Shown here in pieces: positions 5,199 to 47,175 of a DNA stretch of 64,000 nucleotides. The stretch's first letter is position 1. Each line of letters begins with the position of its first letter. The stretch comes from Flavobacterium hercynium (GTDB lineage Bacteria > Bacteroidota > Bacteroidia > Flavobacteriales > Flavobacteriaceae): the NCBI RefSeq assembly GCF_002217285.1, contig NZ_MUGW01000004.1, positions 1 to 64,000 of the forward strand, written 5' to 3'. Both the position numbers and the translations under genes were made by a program. The notes beneath the pieces are model-generated. The model searched no databases and was not told the origin of the DNA. It saw only the letters and a list, made by a program, of their open reading frames with translations.

Positions 5199-5302
5199 AA
5201 TGCTTTTGCGAGCATTTGAGTCCTAGCCCTGATGGTAGCGGCATCCTTTTTCTTGCTTCTTTAGCAAGGAAAAGATATAGCGGACAGCAGGATTAGCTCC
5301 TA
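5199..5302 (+). ncRNA. possible structured RNA element upstream of the AraC/monooxygenase genes
   Basis: A small hairpin (AATGCT/AGCATT, 5199-5216) is followed by an arrangement with flanking segments CCTAGCCCTGATGG and GCGGACAGCAGGATTAGC around a strong 12-bp terminal stem, CTTTTTCTTGCT/AGCAAGGAAAAG, that closes a TCTT loop (one G-U pair). The flanks can partly pair (TCCT with AGGA). From memory, similar flanks with a variable inner hairpin recur between genes in Flavobacteriia; I know of no assigned function. The strand is uncertain. It ends 10 bp before the -33 box of the next promoter. Confidence 0.45.
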
Positions 5303-5312
5303 AAACTTAAAC

Positions 5313-5340
5313 TTGAAAGGCTAACATCTTCGTACCTTAG
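5313..5340 (+). promoter_or_regulatory. promoter of the AraC-type regulator gene
   Basis: TTG at 5313-5315, a 17-bp spacer, then TACCTTAG at 5333-5340 (consensus TAnnTTTG). The ATG is at 5359, so the leader would be only about 10-15 nt. Confidence 0.55.
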
Positions 5341-5358
5341 CAGCACAAATCTTTTATT

Positions 5359-6114
5359 ATGAACCATGATTTCTACTACAAAGCTATTGAGCCGGACAAA
5401 TTACTTCTTGACTTTGTAGAAAATATTGGTATGTTTCATAACAAATCAGACCATGACATGGAAGTTGTTTTGATGCCGGATGGAAGAATTGATTTGTTTT
5501 TTATGCAATCGGAATCGGGTTTGCTTGAGACTACGCTTATTGGGTTGGAGAATGTTCCGGAACAACAAATTATTCGGGCGAATACGCTGGCTTATAAAAT
5601 TAGTTTTAAGCCTTTGGGAGCTGAATATCTTTTGCAGACTTCTATTGCGGGTATTTTGAACAGTGCCACCATTTTACCTCAAGGTTTTTGGAACATCAAT
5701 CCGGGAGATTTAAAAGATTTTGATGCTTTTAAGGAAGTAATTATTCCGAAACTACACCAACTTTTACCTACTGCGATTGACGAGCGAAAACGCCAGCTTT
5801 TTGATTTGGTTTATGCTTCCAACGGTGAAATTAAGGTTCAGGAACTTGCGGAAAAAATAGCGTGGAGCAGCCGCGAAATCAATCGGTATTTTAATAAACA
5901 ATTCGGACTTTCTTTGAATGCTTTTTGTAAAATTCTACGCTTTAAGGTTTCTTTGGAACATATTGCAAAAGGCAGACTTTTTCCGGAATTAAACTTTACG
6001 GATCAAACGCATTTTATTAAGGAGATTAAAAAATTCTCGGGCGTGGTTCCCAGCGAATTGCTAAAAAATAAGAATGACCGATTTATACTATTATCTGTTC
6101 TAAAACAGCAATAA
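5359..6114 (+). CDS. AraC family transcriptional regulator
   Basis: A 251-residue DNA-binding protein. Residues 1-150 form an N-terminal sensing region resembling the DUF6597-type domain of Bacteroidota AraC regulators (DKLLLDFVENI... VLMPDGRIDLFF). Residues 160-245 form the AraC helix-turn-helix region: 'VQELAEKIAWSSREINRYFN' is the first HTH and FTDQTHFIKEIKKFSGVVPSEL is the hallmark second HTH with the FxxxxGxxPSxL ending. It lies 61 bp upstream of, and reads into, the TetX-like monooxygenase gene, so it probably controls it in response to a small molecule. The inducer is unknown. Confidence 0.85.
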   Translation: MNHDFYYKAIEPDKLLLDFVENIGMFHNKSDHDMEVVLMPDGRIDLFFMQSESGLLETTLIGLENVPEQQIIRANTLAYKISFKPLGAEYLLQTSIAGILNSATILPQGFWNINPGDLKDFDAFKEVIIPKLHQLLPTAIDERKRQLFDLVYASNGEIKVQELAEKIAWSSREINRYFNKQFGLSLNAFCKILRFKVSLEHIAKGRLFPELNFTDQTHFIKEIKKFSGVVPSELLKNKNDRFILLSVLKQQ

Positions 6115-7547: not shown

Positions 7548-9863
7548 ATGAAGGTCTGTATTGCTGAAAAACCAAGTGTAGCGCGAGAAATAGCATCCGT
7601 TTTAGGAGCCAACACCAAACATGATGGCTACTTTGAAGGAAATGGTTATGCGGTAACGTATACTTTTGGGCATTTGTGTACCTTAAAAGAACCTAATGAT
7701 TATAAACCGCACTGGAAAAGCTGGGATTTGAACAATCTGCCCATGCTTCCGGAGAAGTTTGAAACCAAGGTGGTGGAGAATTCCGGGATTCAGAAGCAAT
7801 TTAAAATTGTAAAAAGTTTGTTCGACCGCGCCGATGTTGTCATAAACTGCGGGGATGCCGGGCAAGAGGGAGAACTGATTCAGCGTTGGGTAATGAATGA
7901 AGCACACTACAAAGGCGAAGTACAACGCTTGTGGATTTCGTCTCTTACGACAGAAGCCATAAAAGAAGGTTTTGATAACTTAAAACCATCTGCCAATTAC
8001 GACAATTTATTCTACGCGGGCTTTTCGCGTGCGATTGGCGATTGGTTATTGGGAATGAATGCTACCCGATTGTACACGGTAAAACATGGCGGATACAAAC
8101 AGGTTTTGTCTATTGGTCGTGTGCAAACGCCAACTTTGGCAATGGTTGTGGATCGGTTTAAGGAGATTGAGAATTTTAAACCTCAACCGTATTGGGAGTT
8201 GCAAACGTTATACAGAGAAACGCTTTTTAGCTACGAAGAAGGTCGGTTTTTGAATAAAGAAGACGGACAAGCGTTGGCCAATAAGGTTAAAGAAAGTGAA
8301 TTCGAAATTGTTTCGGTAGAGAAAAAGAACGGAAACGAATATGCTCCAAAACTGTTTGATTTAACGGGCTTGCAGGTGTATTGCAATACAAAATTTGGTT
8401 TTTCGGCAGATGAAACACTCAAAATTGTGCAGACGCTCTATGAGCAAAAAGTAGTTACCTATCCCAGAGTCGATACGACGTTTTTACCCAATGATATTTA
8501 TCCGAAAGTACCGGGGATTCTGCAAAAGCTAACAAATTACGCAACTTTGACGGAACCGCTTTTGGGGAAAAAAATTAAAAAATCGCCTAAGGTTTTTAAC
8601 GATAAAAAAGTAACGGATCACCACGCTATTATTCCAACCGGAATACAATCGAACTTGCAATACAATCAGCAACAGGTTTACGACATCATTACAAGACGTT
8701 TTATTGCTGTTTTTTATGATGATTGTTTGGTTGCTAATACGACTGTTATTGGTAAAGCTGCTGATGTCACGTTTAAAACTACGGGAAAAGAAATCTTAAA
8801 AAAAGGTTTTCGTATTGTATTTGAAGATCCGAACGCTAAAGAAAAAGAAGCAGATATATTACCAAGTTTTGTGGTAGGAGAAAAAGGACCACACGAACCT
8901 TCGTTTTTAGAAAAAGAAACCAAACCACCCAATCAGTTTACGGAAGCAACGCTACTGCGAGCAATGGAAACGGCTGGAAAACAGGTTGATGATGAGGATT
9001 TACGCGAATTGATGAAAGAAAACGGCATTGGTCGTCCGTCTACTCGTGCGAATATCATTGAAACGCTTTTTAAGCGTCAATATATTGTTAGAAATAAAAA
9101 ACAGGTCTTGCCTACTCCAACCGGAATTCAGCTTATTGATACGATTCAAAATGAATTGATTAAGTCAGCTGAGCTTACTGGTTCCTGGGAGAAGCAGTTA
9201 AAGGATATCGAAAAAGGAACGTTTACCGCGGGTGCTTTTATCAAAAACATGAAGCGCATGGTCGAAGCTTTGGTTACGGAAGTACGAAGCGAAACCAGAC
9301 ACGCTAATATTTCGCATGCTCAAAGTGTTCAAAAAGAGGTGGTAAAGGTGGAGAAGAAAAAAGCTGCCGGAATTTTAGCCGAAACCTGCCCAAAATGCCA
9401 GAAAGCGACTTTGATTAAAGGAAAATCTGCTTTTGGATGTGGGAATTATAAAGCGGGTTGCGATTTCTTATTACCATATACTTTTGCTGATAAAAAAATA
9501 TCTGAAAATCAGTATTTAAGATTGGTTCAAAAAGGATCTACTGTAAACATAAAAGGTTTTAAAACCGAAGCGGGAACCGTAGAAGGTTTAATTCGCTTTG
9601 AGGAAAACTACAAACTTAAACTGGAAGTTAAAAAAACGGCTGCCAAAGCAAAACCGGAAACAAAAACAGAAACCGCATCTGATGCTCTGACCTGCCCTAA
9701 ATGTAAAAAAGGCACGATCATGAAAGGCAAAACGGCTTATGGCTGTGGCGATTATAAATTGGGTTGCGATTTTAAAGTCTCTTTTGATGATGTTAGAGCT
9801 CAACTAAAAGACCAGAAACCAACAAAAGAACTGGTGTATGCGATTTTAAAAGACAACGCTTAG
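7548..9863 (+). CDS. topB: DNA topoisomerase III (type IA)
   Basis: Relaxes and decatenates DNA by a single-strand cut. The protein opens with the TOPRIM domain (MKVCIAEKPSVAREIASVLG) containing INCGDAGQEGE; the active-site tyrosine is Tyr305 in VVTYPRVDTTFLP. Conserved IGRVQTPTLAM and GIGRPSTRA segments follow. The C-terminus carries two C4 zinc ribbons of parallel design (CPKCQKATLIKGKSAFGCG and CPKCKKGTIMKGKTAYGCG). The start at 7548 gives 771 residues and is preceded by an AAGGAG-type ribosome binding site, unusual for this phylum; a 25-residue upstream extension would lie in repeat DNA. Such TopB enzymes are often found on accessory DNA as well as chromosomes. Confidence 0.93.
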   Translation: MKVCIAEKPSVAREIASVLGANTKHDGYFEGNGYAVTYTFGHLCTLKEPNDYKPHWKSWDLNNLPMLPEKFETKVVENSGIQKQFKIVKSLFDRADVVINCGDAGQEGELIQRWVMNEAHYKGEVQRLWISSLTTEAIKEGFDNLKPSANYDNLFYAGFSRAIGDWLLGMNATRLYTVKHGGYKQVLSIGRVQTPTLAMVVDRFKEIENFKPQPYWELQTLYRETLFSYEEGRFLNKEDGQALANKVKESEFEIVSVEKKNGNEYAPKLFDLTGLQVYCNTKFGFSADETLKIVQTLYEQKVVTYPRVDTTFLPNDIYPKVPGILQKLTNYATLTEPLLGKKIKKSPKVFNDKKVTDHHAIIPTGIQSNLQYNQQQVYDIITRRFIAVFYDDCLVANTTVIGKAADVTFKTTGKEILKKGFRIVFEDPNAKEKEADILPSFVVGEKGPHEPSFLEKETKPPNQFTEATLLRAMETAGKQVDDEDLRELMKENGIGRPSTRANIIETLFKRQYIVRNKKQVLPTPTGIQLIDTIQNELIKSAELTGSWEKQLKDIEKGTFTAGAFIKNMKRMVEALVTEVRSETRHANISHAQSVQKEVVKVEKKKAAGILAETCPKCQKATLIKGKSAFGCGNYKAGCDFLLPYTFADKKISENQYLRLVQKGSTVNIKGFKTEAGTVEGLIRFEENYKLKLEVKKTAAKAKPETKTETASDALTCPKCKKGTIMKGKTAYGCGDYKLGCDFKVSFDDVRAQLKDQKPTKELVYAILKDNA

Positions 9864-9939
9864 TGTAAAAACTAAAACTGTTATCTAAGTTTTTTTTTCC
9901 TAAATTAGTGGTTATAATTAACACCAAAACCCTAACCTT

Positions 9940-10431
9940 ATGAACCAAAAATTTACTCTTAAAATAACTTGTGCTGTTTTACTGGCTACTATTGCTTCCT
10001 GTCAAAAAAAGGAAACAATCAAAATAAATAAAATCAAAACGGCTGAATGGCTTATCGGCAACTGGGAAACCAAAACACCAGATGGTACTCTTACCGAAAG
10101 CTGGCAAAAGGTAGACGACAGTACTTTTAGTGCTACTTCTTATTTTATAAAAGGAAAAGACACTTTGCATAACGAACGTATCATTCTTTCTCAAAAAGGA
10201 GAAAATCTTACCTACAGCGCTACTGTAAACGGTCAGAACAATGACAAGGCTATTGATTTTCCTTCTACAAGCGAAACAGATACTAAATTGGTTTTCGAAA
10301 ATCCACAACATGACTTCCCTCAAAAAATAACGTATACTAAAACTGCTAATAATACCGTAACAGCTCAAATTACAGGGAAACTTCAAGGAAAAATAACGAC
10401 GGATACGTTTTTAATGGCTAAGAGCCGGTAA
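9940..10431 (+). CDS. lipoprotein, DUF6265-like
   Basis: A 163-residue protein with a lipoprotein signal peptide: hydrophobic residues 9-19 and a lipobox ending ASC at about Cys21, followed by QKKE. The mature part (AEWLIGNWETKTPDG...ESWQKVDDSTFSATSYF) resembles the DUF6265 family, a small beta-rich lipocalin-like fold with an xxLIGxW opening, found in many Bacteroidota. The function is unknown. It starts 76 bp after topB, with a weak TAAATTAG -7-like box at 9901, so it probably has its own promoter. It is convergent with the MFS gene, the two being separated by a long inverted array. Confidence 0.7.
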   Translation: MNQKFTLKITCAVLLATIASCQKKETIKINKIKTAEWLIGNWETKTPDGTLTESWQKVDDSTFSATSYFIKGKDTLHNERIILSQKGENLTYSATVNGQNNDKAIDFPSTSETDTKLVFENPQHDFPQKITYTKTANNTVTAQITGKLQGKITTDTFLMAKSR

Positions 10432-10703
10432 ATCGTTTATTTGTTGATTTGTTTAATCGGTTATTTGTTGAACTGTTGATTTGTTGGAACGCTAATTTGT
10501 TAAACCGTTAAACTGTTGAATCGTTAAATTGTTAGGCCGGTTATTTGTTGGAACGTTTATTTATTTATTTGGAATATTTTTAAAATTTAAAGATTGAATG
10601 ATTTAAAGATTAAAAAAGATAAACATTGAACAATCAAACAAATCAACAATCAAACGACGAACCAAATTAACGATTTCAACGATTAAACAAATAACCGATT
10701 AAA
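10432..10703. repeat. inverted oligonucleotide array between convergent genes
   Basis: The left half (10432-10560) is built of variants of GTTGATTTGTT/GTTAAACCGTT; the right half (10620-10703) holds their reverse complements (AACAAATCAAC, AACGATTAAAC). The whole can fold into a long imperfect hairpin at the 3' ends of both genes and may act as a two-way terminator. Confidence 0.65.
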
Positions 10704-42654: not shown

Positions 42655-44271
42655 CTACGCTATTACTCCGGATTTTACATTTTCGATCCCTCCTTTTACG
42701 TGGGCCGCATTTGCTCTTCCACTTGGATCCAGGTTTTCCTGCCATTTTGGAATCCATTTACGAACGGTTTGTGCCGCGCTGACCTGTGGATAGTATTTAT
42801 GAAAAATAGAGCGATACAAGTACGCTTCTTTTGTTGTTGGTGAATTATACGGAAATTCTGCTGCTGCTCCTTCTAACTGCTCATCAGACACCTGAGAAGC
42901 GCAATACTCGATCAGTTCATCAATCCAGCTGTAACCAACTCCATCAGAAAACTGTTCTTTCTGACGCCATAAAATATCGTCCGGTAAATACGGCTGTTCA
43001 GGTGTATCGAATGCTTTTCTTAAAATGTATTTTTCAACCCCATTGTACGTTTTAGGCTGTTTTTCTTCTGCTTTGATACGAATCGTTGCATCAAGGAAAT
43101 CTTTGTCTAAAAACGGCACCCTTGTTTCGATACCATTTGCCATTGTCGATTTATCAGCACGCAATAAATCTGCGGTAAATAATTTCTGAACTCTTTCGAT
43201 GGTTTCTTTTTGAAATTCTTCTGTAGATGGTGCATTTCTAAAATACAAATGACCTCCAAAAATTTCATCAGCTCCTTCTCCTGAAAGAATTACTTTTACG
43301 CCCTTTTCTGCGATTGCTTTAGACATCAAATACATTGGCACACTAGCTCTTACTGAGATAATGTCATAGGTTTCAATATATAAAATTATTTTTTCTAAAA
43401 CTTCTATTCCTTCTTTTACAGAAAAATGAATTTCATGGTGTTCTGTTCCTAAAAATGCTGCTGCTTTTCTGGCTGCTTGTGCATCTGGAGCATCTGCATT
43501 TAATGCTACTGAAAAAGAATGCAGTTTTTCTCCGCTATCTGCTAATAATCGAGCTGCAATTGCAGACGTTAAAGAAGAATCTAATCCTCCTGAAAGCAAT
43601 ACTCCAACAGGAACTTCGCTCATTAAACGCTTGCGAACAGCCTCTGTTAGTTTTTCTCTTATAACACTTAAATTTAAGTCTTTGTTTGCTTTTTCATAAT
43701 CCTCATATTCAGGATTATAATACTTCACAAATCCTTTTTTTGCGGTGTAATAATGTCCCGGTGGAAACGTAGAAAATGTTTTACACTGATCTGCAATAGG
43801 TTTCATTTCTGAAGAGAAATAAATTCTTCCTCTTTCATCTAAACCATAATACAACGGCTTTACTCCCATTGGATCACGACCGGCCATATAATCATCTCCA
43901 TCGACAATTACGAAAGCCCAGTCTCCATCTAATTTATTACAAAAATCGTATCCAAATTCTTCATATAAATGAACAATAACTTCTGAATCTGATTTTGTTC
44001 TAAATGTATGTTCTTTTAAGATACCTTCTTTTAACTGCTGATAATTATAGATCTCCCCATCATGAACCATCCAGGCATCTTTTGTTCCCTGAATAGGCTG
44101 CTTACCTGAATTCAACCCAATAATCGACAAACTCTCGTGACAAATTATACTACCATTTTTCAAAATTTGAAAATCACTTTCATCAGGACCCCGGTGCGAC
44201 ATTCTTTTAGAAAGCTCTTTTACCAGTTGCGGGTCTTTTCCCTTACCAATAACGGCTAATATTCCAGACAT
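42655..44271 (-). CDS. asparagine synthase B-like protein lacking glutaminase residues
   Basis: A 538-residue paralogue of AsnB. The synthetase half is intact: GVLLSGGLDSSLTSA (PP-loop), VILSGEGADEIFGG and QWRQKEQFSDGVGYSWID-like sequence. The N-terminal half keeps the glutaminase fold but has lost its chemistry: the initiator Met is followed by Ser2 (codon TCT) where AsnB has the nucleophile Cys; Arg of HERLAI is Ser47 (HESLSI); Asn of NGEIYN is Asp71 (DGEIYN). It probably uses ammonia, or another nitrogen donor, rather than glutamine. It lies 256 bp downstream of the canonical AsnB gene on the same strand, each with its own terminator and this one with its own -7 box. Confidence 0.9.
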   Translation of the reverse strand: MSGILAVIGKGKDPQLVKELSKRMSHRGPDESDFQILKNGSIICHESLSIIGLNSGKQPIQGTKDAWMVHDGEIYNYQQLKEGILKEHTFRTKSDSEVIVHLYEEFGYDFCNKLDGDWAFVIVDGDDYMAGRDPMGVKPLYYGLDERGRIYFSSEMKPIADQCKTFSTFPPGHYYTAKKGFVKYYNPEYEDYEKANKDLNLSVIREKLTEAVRKRLMSEVPVGVLLSGGLDSSLTSAIAARLLADSGEKLHSFSVALNADAPDAQAARKAAAFLGTEHHEIHFSVKEGIEVLEKIILYIETYDIISVRASVPMYLMSKAIAEKGVKVILSGEGADEIFGGHLYFRNAPSTEEFQKETIERVQKLFTADLLRADKSTMANGIETRVPFLDKDFLDATIRIKAEEKQPKTYNGVEKYILRKAFDTPEQPYLPDDILWRQKEQFSDGVGYSWIDELIEYCASQVSDEQLEGAAAEFPYNSPTTKEAYLYRSIFHKYYPQVSAAQTVRKWIPKWQENLDPSGRANAAHVKGGIENVKSGVIA

Positions 44272-44387
44272 ACGATTCTATTTTTATTTCTTAATTTAAT
44301 ATAAAATTTTAAAGGCGGCAACAAATAAGCATTAGCTGAAATGCATCATAAACTAATCTAACTTTTATTCATCTATTTGGGGTTTGT

Positions 44388-44395
44388 CAAATATA
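44388..44395 (-). promoter_or_regulatory. promoter -7 box of the asparagine synthase-like gene
   Basis: TATATTTG on the minus strand, an exact TAnnTTTG box, about 115 bp before the ATG at 44271. It means the two paralogues can be transcribed separately. Confidence 0.45.
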
Positions 44396-44469
44396 AAAAT
44401 TAAAGTTAAATAATTGCTAATAATTCCGTTCAAGTAATTGAAATATTACAAATTAATATTATACACAAG

Positions 44470-44500
44470 AAAAACGTCCCCATAAATGAGAACGTCTTTC
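44470..44500 (-). terminator. terminator of asnB
   Basis: Minus strand AGACGTTCTC, loop ATTTAT, GGGGACGTTTTTC; a 10-bp stem with three G-U pairs and a short T run, about 30 bp after the asnB stop. Confidence 0.55.
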
Positions 44501-44527
44501 CAATAACTAAAATATTAAGTAAGTTTT

Positions 44528-46204
44528 TTATGCTTTTACATAGGCGTCGTCATGTACACTTGCCACAGCTCTACCAGAAGGATCATTCATATTTTTGAAA
44601 GCTTCATCCCACTCTAAAGCAATTTTTGTACTACACGCTACACTTGCTTCCTGAGGCACACATAAGGCTGCTGCGTCGCTTGGGAAGTGTTCTGCAAAGA
44701 TCGAACGGTAATAGTATTCTTCTTTAGATGTTGGTGTTTGCAATGGAAATTTATATTTCGCATTTGCCAATTGTTCATCTGAAACTTCTTTTCCAACAAC
44801 TTCTTTAAGCGTATCGATCCAGCTGTATCCTACTCCGTCAGAGAATTGTTCTTTTTGTCTCCATGCTACACTTTCCGGCAACATATCTTCAAAAGCTTTA
44901 CGAACAACCCATTTTTCCATTGGGTGCTCTTTGTTAATCATTTTATCTTGTGGATTGATGCGCATTGCAACATCCATAAATTCTTTATCTAAGAAAGGAA
45001 CACGACCTTCTATTCCCCACGCTGCCAAACTTTTGTTGGCACGTAAACAATCGTACATGTGCAGTTTACCTAATTTACGAACGTTTTCTTCGTGAAATTC
45101 CTGTGCATTTGGCGCTTTGTGAAAATACAGGTAACCTCCAAATAATTCATCTGCTCCTTCACCAGACAATACCATTTTGATTCCCATTGATTTAATAACA
45201 CGTGCCATTAACCACATTGGTGTCGATGCTCTAACCGTTGTTACGTCATAGGTTTCTAAATTGTAAATTACATCGCGAACAGCATCTAAACCTTCCTGAA
45301 TTGTAAATTTAATTTCATGGTGAATCGTTCCGATATGTTTGGCTACAACCTGAGCAGCAGCTAAATCAGGAGAACCATCAAGTCCTACTGAAAAAGAGTG
45401 CAATTGTGGGTACCAGGCATCTGTTGTATCATCTGACTCAATACGTTTTTGTGCAAATTTTTTGGCTACAGCCGAAGTAATAGACGAATCTAAACCTCCT
45501 GAAAGTAAAACTCCGTAAGGAACATCACTCATTAATTGTCTGTGAACAGCCGCTTCAAGTGCTTCTTTAATTGCAGGAATACTTGTTTCGTTGTCTTTTA
45601 CTGCATCATATTCTGTCCAGTCTCTTTTGTACCATTGTACAAATTCACCGTCTTTACTTGTCATGTAGTGTCCCGGAGGAAACAATTGAATTTTTGTACA
45701 GTATCCTTCTAAAGCTTTTAATTCAGATGCTACGTAAAAAGTTCCGTGTTGATCCCAACCAATGTATAATGGAATAATTCCCATGTGATCACGAGCAATA
45801 AAATACTCGTCTTTTTCTACATCATAAATAGCAAATCCAAATATTCCGTTCATTTCATCAACGAAATGTGGCCCTTTTGCCTGATAAAGTGCTAAGATAA
45901 CTTCGCAATCACTTTCAGTCTGAAAGTTATATTTTCCTTCAAATTGTTTGCGTAATTCTCTGTGGTTGTAAATTTCACCATTAGCAGCTAAAACTAATTT
46001 TTTGTCTTCTGTAAACAAAGGCTGTTTTCCTGAAGCCGGATCTACAATTGCCAAACGTTCGTGAGACAAAATCGCTTTATCATTGCTGTAAATTCCGCTC
46101 CAGTCTGGTCCACGGTGGCGAATGATTTTAGACATTTCTAATACTTGAGGTCTTAAGGCTTCCGCTTTTTGCTTTAAATCAAAGGCACATACAATTCCAC
46201 ACAT
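44528..46204 (-). CDS. asnB: asparagine synthase B (glutamine-hydrolysing)
   Basis: A 558-residue enzyme closely like E. coli AsnB: it makes asparagine from aspartate, ATP and glutamine. The nucleophile Cys2 follows Met (MCGIVCAF), and the other glutaminase residues are present: Arg50 in HERLAIV, Asn75-Gly-Glu in ANGEIYN and Asp in SDCEVIL. The synthetase domain has GVLLSGGLDSSITSA and MVLSGEGADELFGGYLYF. It is the first of two tandem paralogues; the downstream one (42655-44271) lacks the glutaminase residues. Confidence 0.96.
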   Translation of the reverse strand: MCGIVCAFDLKQKAEALRPQVLEMSKIIRHRGPDWSGIYSNDKAILSHERLAIVDPASGKQPLFTEDKKLVLAANGEIYNHRELRKQFEGKYNFQTESDCEVILALYQAKGPHFVDEMNGIFGFAIYDVEKDEYFIARDHMGIIPLYIGWDQHGTFYVASELKALEGYCTKIQLFPPGHYMTSKDGEFVQWYKRDWTEYDAVKDNETSIPAIKEALEAAVHRQLMSDVPYGVLLSGGLDSSITSAVAKKFAQKRIESDDTTDAWYPQLHSFSVGLDGSPDLAAAQVVAKHIGTIHHEIKFTIQEGLDAVRDVIYNLETYDVTTVRASTPMWLMARVIKSMGIKMVLSGEGADELFGGYLYFHKAPNAQEFHEENVRKLGKLHMYDCLRANKSLAAWGIEGRVPFLDKEFMDVAMRINPQDKMINKEHPMEKWVVRKAFEDMLPESVAWRQKEQFSDGVGYSWIDTLKEVVGKEVSDEQLANAKYKFPLQTPTSKEEYYYRSIFAEHFPSDAAALCVPQEASVACSTKIALEWDEAFKNMNDPSGRAVASVHDDAYVKA

Positions 46205-46725: not shown

Positions 46726-47175
46726 TTATTCTACACTTTCTATAGTGTAATGCGTTTTATTAATTTCAAAAGTAAAACCTACTTTATTACCCATTAGATG
46801 AGATCCTAAAGGTGATTGTGGCGAAAGTGCGATAACATTAATTCCTTCTATCGAAATTTTAGGAAGTGCTACGCTTAGGTATAAATAAATCCCATTGGCT
46901 TTGACCAGACTTCCTGAAATAATATTCTCTGTGGTTTTCGAAGCATCAATTTTATCTAAAATCGCTTTTTGGGTGATTGCTTCTTTGAGTTTATTAGTCA
47001 ATTTTTCCTGCTCGATATGCATCATCGACAAAGCTGTTTCGTGCTTATCGCCAGCAGAACCTTTGGCATCGTTTTTTGAATCTTCTGTCAAAGCCGAAAT
47101 CATGTCTCTAAAAACATCTATGCGGTCCTGAACCATTTGTTGGTAATGTGAATATATTTTTTGTTTGAATTCCAT
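46726..47175 (-). CDS. GreA/GreB-like protein
   Basis: A 149-residue cytosolic protein. Residues 1-75 form a long helical hairpin (VFRDMISALTEDSK ... DKHETALSMMHIEQEKL), and residues 85-149 look like the GreA C-terminal FKBP-like domain, with SPLGSHLMGNKVGFTFEI where GreA has SPxGxALLGKKVGDxxxV. It probably binds the RNA polymerase secondary channel or is a Gre relative. The acidic loop between the helices (EDSKNDAKGSAGDKHE) carries Asp/Glu residues as in Gre factors, but the spacing differs. Database names for such proteins may be misleading. It is monocistronic. Confidence 0.65.
   Translation of the reverse strand: MEFKQKIYSHYQQMVQDRIDVFRDMISALTEDSKNDAKGSAGDKHETALSMMHIEQEKLTNKLKEAITQKAILDKIDASKTTENIISGSLVKANGIYLYLSVALPKISIEGINVIALSPQSPLGSHLMGNKVGFTFEINKTHYTIESVE

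Follow-up and report, generated by a model that had tools for sequence, protein, structure and literature searches.

Flavobacterium AsnB paralogues with altered glutaminase residues and clade-wide substitutions in the synthetase half

The window analysed here (the whole 64,000-nucleotide stretch formed by positions 1 to 64,000 of contig NZ_MUGW01000004.1 of Flavobacterium hercynium, assembly GCF_002217285.1) carries on its minus strand two genes of the asparagine synthase B (AsnB) family. The upstream one (copy 1, 44528–46204, 558 amino acids) is a complete AsnB; the downstream one (copy 2, 42655–44271, 538 amino acids) is an AsnB paralogue that has lost glutaminase residues. Copy 2 was found to belong to a clade in which such losses are universal and are accompanied by four substitutions in the synthetase half, the adenylation residues being kept. 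Databases would label the gene asparagine synthase B, but it probably draws on free ammonia or has some other function. The reading favoured here, with slightly less than even confidence, is that copy 2 is a glutamine-independent synthetase that adenylates aspartate and uses ammonia or another amine.

RESULTS

Copy 2 is a full-length, two-domain AsnB homologue: it contains the Pfam domains GATase_7 and Asn_synthase, its best match among solved structures is Escherichia coli AsnB (1CT9; E-value 8.5e-141), and it scores 687 bits against the NCBIfam asparagine synthase B model NF006949 (cut-off 499), for which copy 1 scores 943 bits. The two proteins are 44% identical over 539 aligned columns. 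Their N-termini read MSGILAVIGKG (copy 2) and MCGIVCAF (copy 1), the nucleophile Cys being replaced in copy 2 by Ser at codon 2 (TCT, 44266–44268, minus strand, as are all features below). The glutamine-binding Arg (E. coli Arg49; E. coli residues are numbered throughout without the initial Met) is replaced by Ser at codon 47, within HESL (44131–44133), and the Asn equivalent to E. coli Asn74 by Asp at codon 71, within HDGEIYN (44059–44061). The equivalents of E. coli Gly75, Glu76 and Asp98 are retained, as are the PP-loop SGGLDSS and the synthetase motif SGEGADE. These three substitutions, the two motifs and the coordinates of both open reading frames (ORFs) had been given in a preliminary description of this DNA and were confirmed; its statement that copy 1 has the glutaminase residues also holds, Cys, Arg and Asn being intact in 113 of the 113 full copy-1 ORFs compared. 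The AsnA profile TIGR00669 gave no match to copy 2, which matched AsnB models. Since a profile search found no AsnA match anywhere in the F. hercynium genome, and GatB was not found there either, any asparagine synthesis in this organism must rest on AsnB-type genes. No paper on this Flavobacterium gene was found among open PMC papers. A structure of copy 2 predicted from a 17-row alignment reached a mean predicted local distance difference test score (pLDDT) of 47.8, and hence was not used.

Orthologues of copy 2 were gathered from a genome-collection search (80 loci, nearly all Flavobacterium), from 60 relatives, and from ∼300 genomes of the genus and ∼300 of the order; leaving out ORFs outside 500–580 amino acids or below 450 bits gave 310 ORFs, 219 of them distinct. 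At positions 2, 47 and 71, the distinct sequences had Cys/Arg/Asn in 125 cases and Ser/Ser/Asp in 84, the other ten being Gly/Arg/Asn (7), Gly/Arg/Asp (2) and Cys/Cys/Asn (1). An earlier set of 222 full ORFs (161 distinct) had held Ser/Ser/Asp (111, with TCT as codon 2 in 111/111), Cys/Arg/Asn (103) and Gly/Arg/Asn (8), and nothing else, a pattern beyond chance; later fetches added the Gly/Arg/Asp and Cys/Cys/Asn sequences. The latter (L280, from a one-contig genome) retains Cys2 and Asn71 and has Ser45 as well as Cys47. His45 is also lost in the Gly2 sequences, and is kept in all 84 Ser/Ser/Asp sequences. Outside Flavobacterium, the orthologues from two genera of the family and from one genus of another family are intact. 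The preliminary description had proposed that orthologues in close relatives keeping Cys2, Arg and Asn would point to a strain-specific mutation; the 125 intact sequences go some way in that direction, but the altered state is clade-wide and not peculiar to one strain. The idea that Ser2, Ser47 and Asp71 form an acidic ammonium-binding pocket was set aside, since the Gly2 sublineage retains Arg47 and Asn71.

The window's clade was defined by Val311 and His341, both in the synthetase half, and comprises 92 distinct sequences; in 92/92 the nucleophile or a glutamine-binding residue is gone. In a tree with those columns masked, for which, as for the other copy-2 trees, near-identical sequences had been thinned (41 of the 92 kept), the clade formed one side of a branch with support 100/99. 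The two defining substitutions, universal in the clade by definition, are Val for Thr at codon 311 (43339–43341; E. coli Thr327), also seen in 12 of 127 sequences outside it, and His for Tyr at codon 341, after SGEGADEIFGG (43249–43251; E. coli Tyr357), seen in none of the 127. Two more are universal by observation (92/92): Ala for Val at codon 270 (43462–43464; E. coli Val286; 2/127 outside) and Ile for Thr at codon 305 (43357–43359; E. coli Thr321; 7/127 outside). L280 has all four. E. coli AsnB, copy 1 and the intact orthologues of copy 2 share 178 conserved columns; the Ser/Ser/Asp sequences deviate in 24 of them, 17 of which fall in the synthetase domain. Position 305 corresponds to Thr336 of human ASNS, at the surface of the synthetase site, as judged by alignment to the human chain and a cross-check with Glu-364 of the same chain. 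One report states that T336I almost abolishes the glutamine-dependent activity of human ASNS (PMC6748925).

The adenylation residues are among those kept: SGGLD, D279, E316, D319, R324, S346, G347, E348, D351, E352, D384, R387, R400, D405 and K449 (E. coli numbering) are invariant in all 94 altered-glutaminase sequences. Several of them (SGGLD, D279, D319, S346, G347, E348, D351, E352, D384, R387 and K449) map to residues named in the same report on human ASNS as belonging to the synthetase site, for adenylation or the aspartate pocket, and the human E364 and D367 mutants are described there as inactive with ammonium chloride (PMC6748925). The preliminary description had noted that the synthetase motifs remain, which is right; the synthetase half as a whole, however, is not unchanged, given the four positions altered in the whole clade and the 17 deviating columns. 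Its argument for a selected change rather than a random error is supported in so far as the loss has been selected or tolerated over a long time and is no strain error: it is found in 84 of 219 orthologues, the substitution ratio given below is low (median 0.079) and the adenylation residues are kept. The substitutions do, however, extend beyond the glutaminase half-site.

The kept adenylation residues favour two readings, that of an aspartate-adenylating enzyme and that of one that would amidate or ligate another acid, as other AsnB relatives do with meso-diaminopimelate or beta-lactam precursors. The second is, in our judgement, improbable. Synthetase-pocket neighbours (E. coli L232, S239, A325, S326, A388 and V401) did change basally in the clade and differ between its members, which speaks for another acid. 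However, D384 and R387, which we take to be the Asp-binding D and R of a comparison made for Listeria AsnB, are retained together with E348, D351 and E352, and the kept aspartate residues favour adenylation of aspartate. AsnB homologues that amidate meso-diaminopimelate are known, but the Listeria enzyme is said to be without the Asp-binding D and R (PMC8554201). In addition, copy 2 is located before gyrB and mdh, and no biosynthetic genes adjoin it.

Copy 2 is an old lineage and no recent tandem duplicate: many genomes, and two further genera, have it as their sole detected AsnB. A recent duplication with one decayed copy is therefore no fitting description of the pair. Among the 127 distinct sequences outside the clade, copy 2 was the sole AsnB match in 91 cases and was accompanied by copy 1 in 35, one sequence being unassigned. 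Of those 91, 89 were intact with Thr305 and Thr311, the two exceptions lacking Cys2 and any detected AsnA. Substitutions at 305/311 outside the clade were found in 12 of the 35 sequences with copy 1 versus 2 of the 91 without it, a strong association by raw count that corresponds to about five changes on the tree. Copy-1 status in the masked tree was without information for L109, and clade members not individually checked were entered as having copy 1; a pairs test of 305/311 against copy 1 was made on an earlier, smaller set with few pairs, in which L109 and L111 had no copy-1 information. In G138 (L323, L332 and L385) copy 1 lies in pieces on separate contigs, probably an assembly effect, and copy 2 is intact with Ile305 and Val311.

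In a sample of 298 Flavobacterium genomes an AsnB match was found in 225, AsnA in 14 and neither in 59, and none of the 14 AsnA genomes had an AsnB match. That AsnA and AsnB never occur together, and that 59 genomes have neither, suggests that asparagine auxotrophy is frequent in the genus. The two Gly/Arg/Asp sequences (genomes G256 and G268) have Val or Ile at Glu73 and keep Thr305 and Tyr341; both genomes have a single AsnB match (at E 1e-60 or better) and are outside the 14 with AsnA. The ratio of non-synonymous to synonymous substitution rates (dN/dS) between their copy-2 genes is 0.057, with dS saturated near 2. These would be either asparagine auxotrophs that have kept the gene or carriers of a natural glutamine-independent AsnB.

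The altered form typical of the clade was confined to genomes with copy 1: two AsnB matches were present in all 53 Asp71-type genomes among the matches listed, in seven Gly2 genomes and in the Cys47 genome. Copy 1 was at the same locus in 68 of the 71 loci of the first set; in L044 and L084 it was elsewhere, and L039, from a draft metagenome-assembled genome, is the exception that shows none.

Constraint was measured as the median pairwise dN/dS (NG86) over pairs with dS of 0.1–1. The value was 0.079 for clade copy 2 (N domain 0.059, C domain 0.086), 0.050 for intact copy-2 orthologues (N 0.051, C 0.045) and 0.028 for copy 1 of the clade genomes (N 0.037, C 0.023). In parsimony changes per site, the N/C ratio was 0.64 [0.46–0.87] for Ser/Ser/Asp rows versus 1.03 [0.80–1.31] for intact rows. 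Together these values indicate that the synthetase domain has loosened while the dead glutaminase domain has not. In a copy-1 tree built from 45 copy-1-only genomes, 77 genomes of the clade and the window, the copy-1-only genome G485 fell inside the clade; the interval that separates copy 1 from gyrB no longer contains copy 2 there. This is one loss among the 79 rows of that copy-1 clade. Copy 2 is no pseudogene, given the invariant adenylation residues, a dN/dS of ∼0.08 and this one loss in the clade.

A decaying duplicate made redundant by copy 1 is accordingly a very improbable description of copy 2. It would fit with a dN/dS above those of intact orthologues and copy 1, with the excess, outside the clade, of 305/311 substitutions in the presence of copy 1 and with the loss in G485; yet dN/dS is far below 1, ORFs are full length in 92 distinct clade members (a count that took 500–580 amino acid ORFs only), and Ser2, Ser47 and Asp71 do not vary in 84 sequences.

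Another reading is favoured by the constraint having moved to the N domain and by the association with copy 1: here copy 2 would be a partner or regulatory subunit, forming mixed dimers with copy 1 through its N-terminal domain and modulating it with little catalysis of its own. That domain stays conserved despite its lost active site, and human ASNS dimerises via N-terminal domains according to PMC11615228, although the bacterial dimer is described there as head-to-tail. A pure scaffold, however, need not retain every adenylation residue. Matching change in copy 1 is nearly absent (two mild positions, 115 and 250), which is weak evidence against a partnership; in addition, G485 kept copy 1 after losing copy 2, and each gene has its own promoter-like box, with a hairpin between them. 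On balance a partner role seems rather unlikely.

The order of events was read from the tree and the residue states. The synthetase changes seem to predate the loss of the glutaminase, because one clade member, L280, still has Cys2 together with all four synthetase substitutions; it is placed as sister to the Gly2 sequences (support 100/99). The simplest story would be that the synthetase changes came first and were followed by separate glutaminase losses. A Ser/Ser/Asp sequence, L135, was placed beside the group of Gly2 and Cys47 sequences, and monophyly of the Ser/Ser/Asp rows was rejected (P = 0.022, in the set that preceded the Cys47 row). Hence either Ser/Ser/Asp has two origins, or some residues reverted, or the tree contains a small error.

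Copy 1 and copy 2 are probably transcribed separately, as suggested by a hairpin followed by a T run after copy 1 (44470–44496), a probable terminator, and by a promoter-like box before copy 2. The hairpin was recognised by eye and belongs to a block that is conserved across 86 aligned upstream regions; a terminator scan does not list it. The box, TATATTTG (44388–44395, 124 bases before the copy-2 start), matches the Bacteroidota −7 consensus TAnnTTTG. This pattern was present in 86 of 86 distinct clade upstream regions (∼33 in shuffles) versus 24 of 78 for intact orthologues, about the shuffled level; a stricter two-box promoter pattern was found in 6 of the 86, the level of shuffles. The idea of a new promoter arising in the clade was dropped: the box may predate the clade, since CATATTTG stands near the gene start in the intact relatives closest to it. 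Rfam returned nothing above threshold near the two genes, only sub-threshold matches.

The two copies are 218–325 bases apart in Ser/Ser/Asp loci and 202–220 in Gly2 loci. Several intact loci have a gap of ∼2 kb, and the four examined (L112, L098, L208 and L212) hold a lipoprotein-like gene of 541–544 amino acids there; the one scanned, that of L112 (3932–5557), encodes an Amidohydro_3 protein, and in L209 a similar gene precedes copy 1. In L044 (Flavobacterium geliluteum, copy 1 on another contig), an IS200-like transposase gene (Y1_Tnp, 5209–5646) lies just before copy 2 and a peptidase M16 gene (7828–10560) between copy 2 and gyrB; L084 has a similar-looking peptidase gene. In the window, a gene of 149 amino acids (46726–47175) precedes copy 1; its match to the GreA/GreB C-terminal domain is weak and below cut-off, and other species have a similar gene ahead of their AsnB locus.

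DISCUSSION

The favoured reading, an aspartate-adenylating synthetase independent of glutamine, would arise as follows. Within the window's clade, the old AsnB lineage of copy 2 may have been retuned in its synthetase half (Ala270, Ile305, Val311 and His341) while copy 1 was present to supply glutamine-dependent asparagine synthesis. The glutaminase half would then have been inactivated, with substitutions that differ between sublineages, plausibly because an uncoupled glutaminase only wastes glutamine. Present-day copy 2 would most likely still use ATP to adenylate aspartate, or a compound very similar to it, and finish the reaction with free ammonia or another small amine.

Several points weigh against this account. 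The shift of constraint is in the wrong direction for a plain ammonia-dependent asparagine synthetase. Ile305 may harm ammonia-dependent synthesis too, the measurement reported for T336I being of glutamine-dependent activity (PMC6748925). Asparagine auxotrophy could apply to G256 and G268, 59 of the 298 genomes having neither an AsnA nor an AsnB match. As to the history, the label 'Cys2 or Arg47 lost' needs only two changes on the tree (the clade and the Gly/Arg/Asp pair), so that several losses within the clade are deduced from the differing residues; and the best trees place the rows with Gly2 or Cys47 within those with Ser/Ser/Asp, a nesting that taken literally would mean regained residues.

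A broader scenario, which we consider possible but doubtful, would see here a natural evolutionary series in one genus with copy 1 as backup: the synthetase pocket would have changed first, and the glutaminase would then have been lost by at least two, perhaps three, routes in the clade and once in a sole-AsnB lineage, resulting in a new aspartate-using enzyme or a substrate sensor acting on copy 1. If copy 2 is indeed unable to use glutamine, metabolic models based on gene names credit many Flavobacterium with two glutamine-dependent synthetases, one of which cannot work as such. The orthologue set also offers naturally occurring intermediate states, in which the nucleophile and the synthetase changes are each present or absent, for studying the uncoupling of a two-site amidotransferase. 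Furthermore, Ile305 reproduces a substitution found in human asparagine synthetase deficiency, fixed here in a gene under purifying selection.

Compared with known systems, copy 2 resembles E. coli AsnB (1CT9) in being a class II amidotransferase joined to a PP-loop synthetase with its adenylation residues kept, and differs from it in lacking Cys1, Arg49 and Asn74 and in the changes Thr321 to Ile, Thr327 to Val, Tyr357 to His and Val286 to Ala. Engineered AsnB Cys1 mutants, such as the C1A form in 1CT9, also lack the nucleophile and keep ammonia-dependent synthesis; in copy 2, by contrast, the loss is natural and clade-wide, with extra pocket and synthetase changes. Beta-lactam synthetase and carbapenam synthetase are AsnB-fold enzymes not known to use glutamine, but they match copy 2 far more weakly (1JGT, E-value 6.7e-11; 1Q15, 6.9e-12); E348 is kept in copy 2. 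AsnA would be its functional analogue if the ammonia reading is right, although the fold of AsnA is that of an aminoacyl-tRNA-synthetase relative and is unrelated to AsnB. The meso-diaminopimelate-amidating AsnB of Listeria and Bacillus is an AsnB relative with a different acceptor, said to be without the Asp-binding D and R (PMC8554201), whereas copy 2 keeps D384 and R387.

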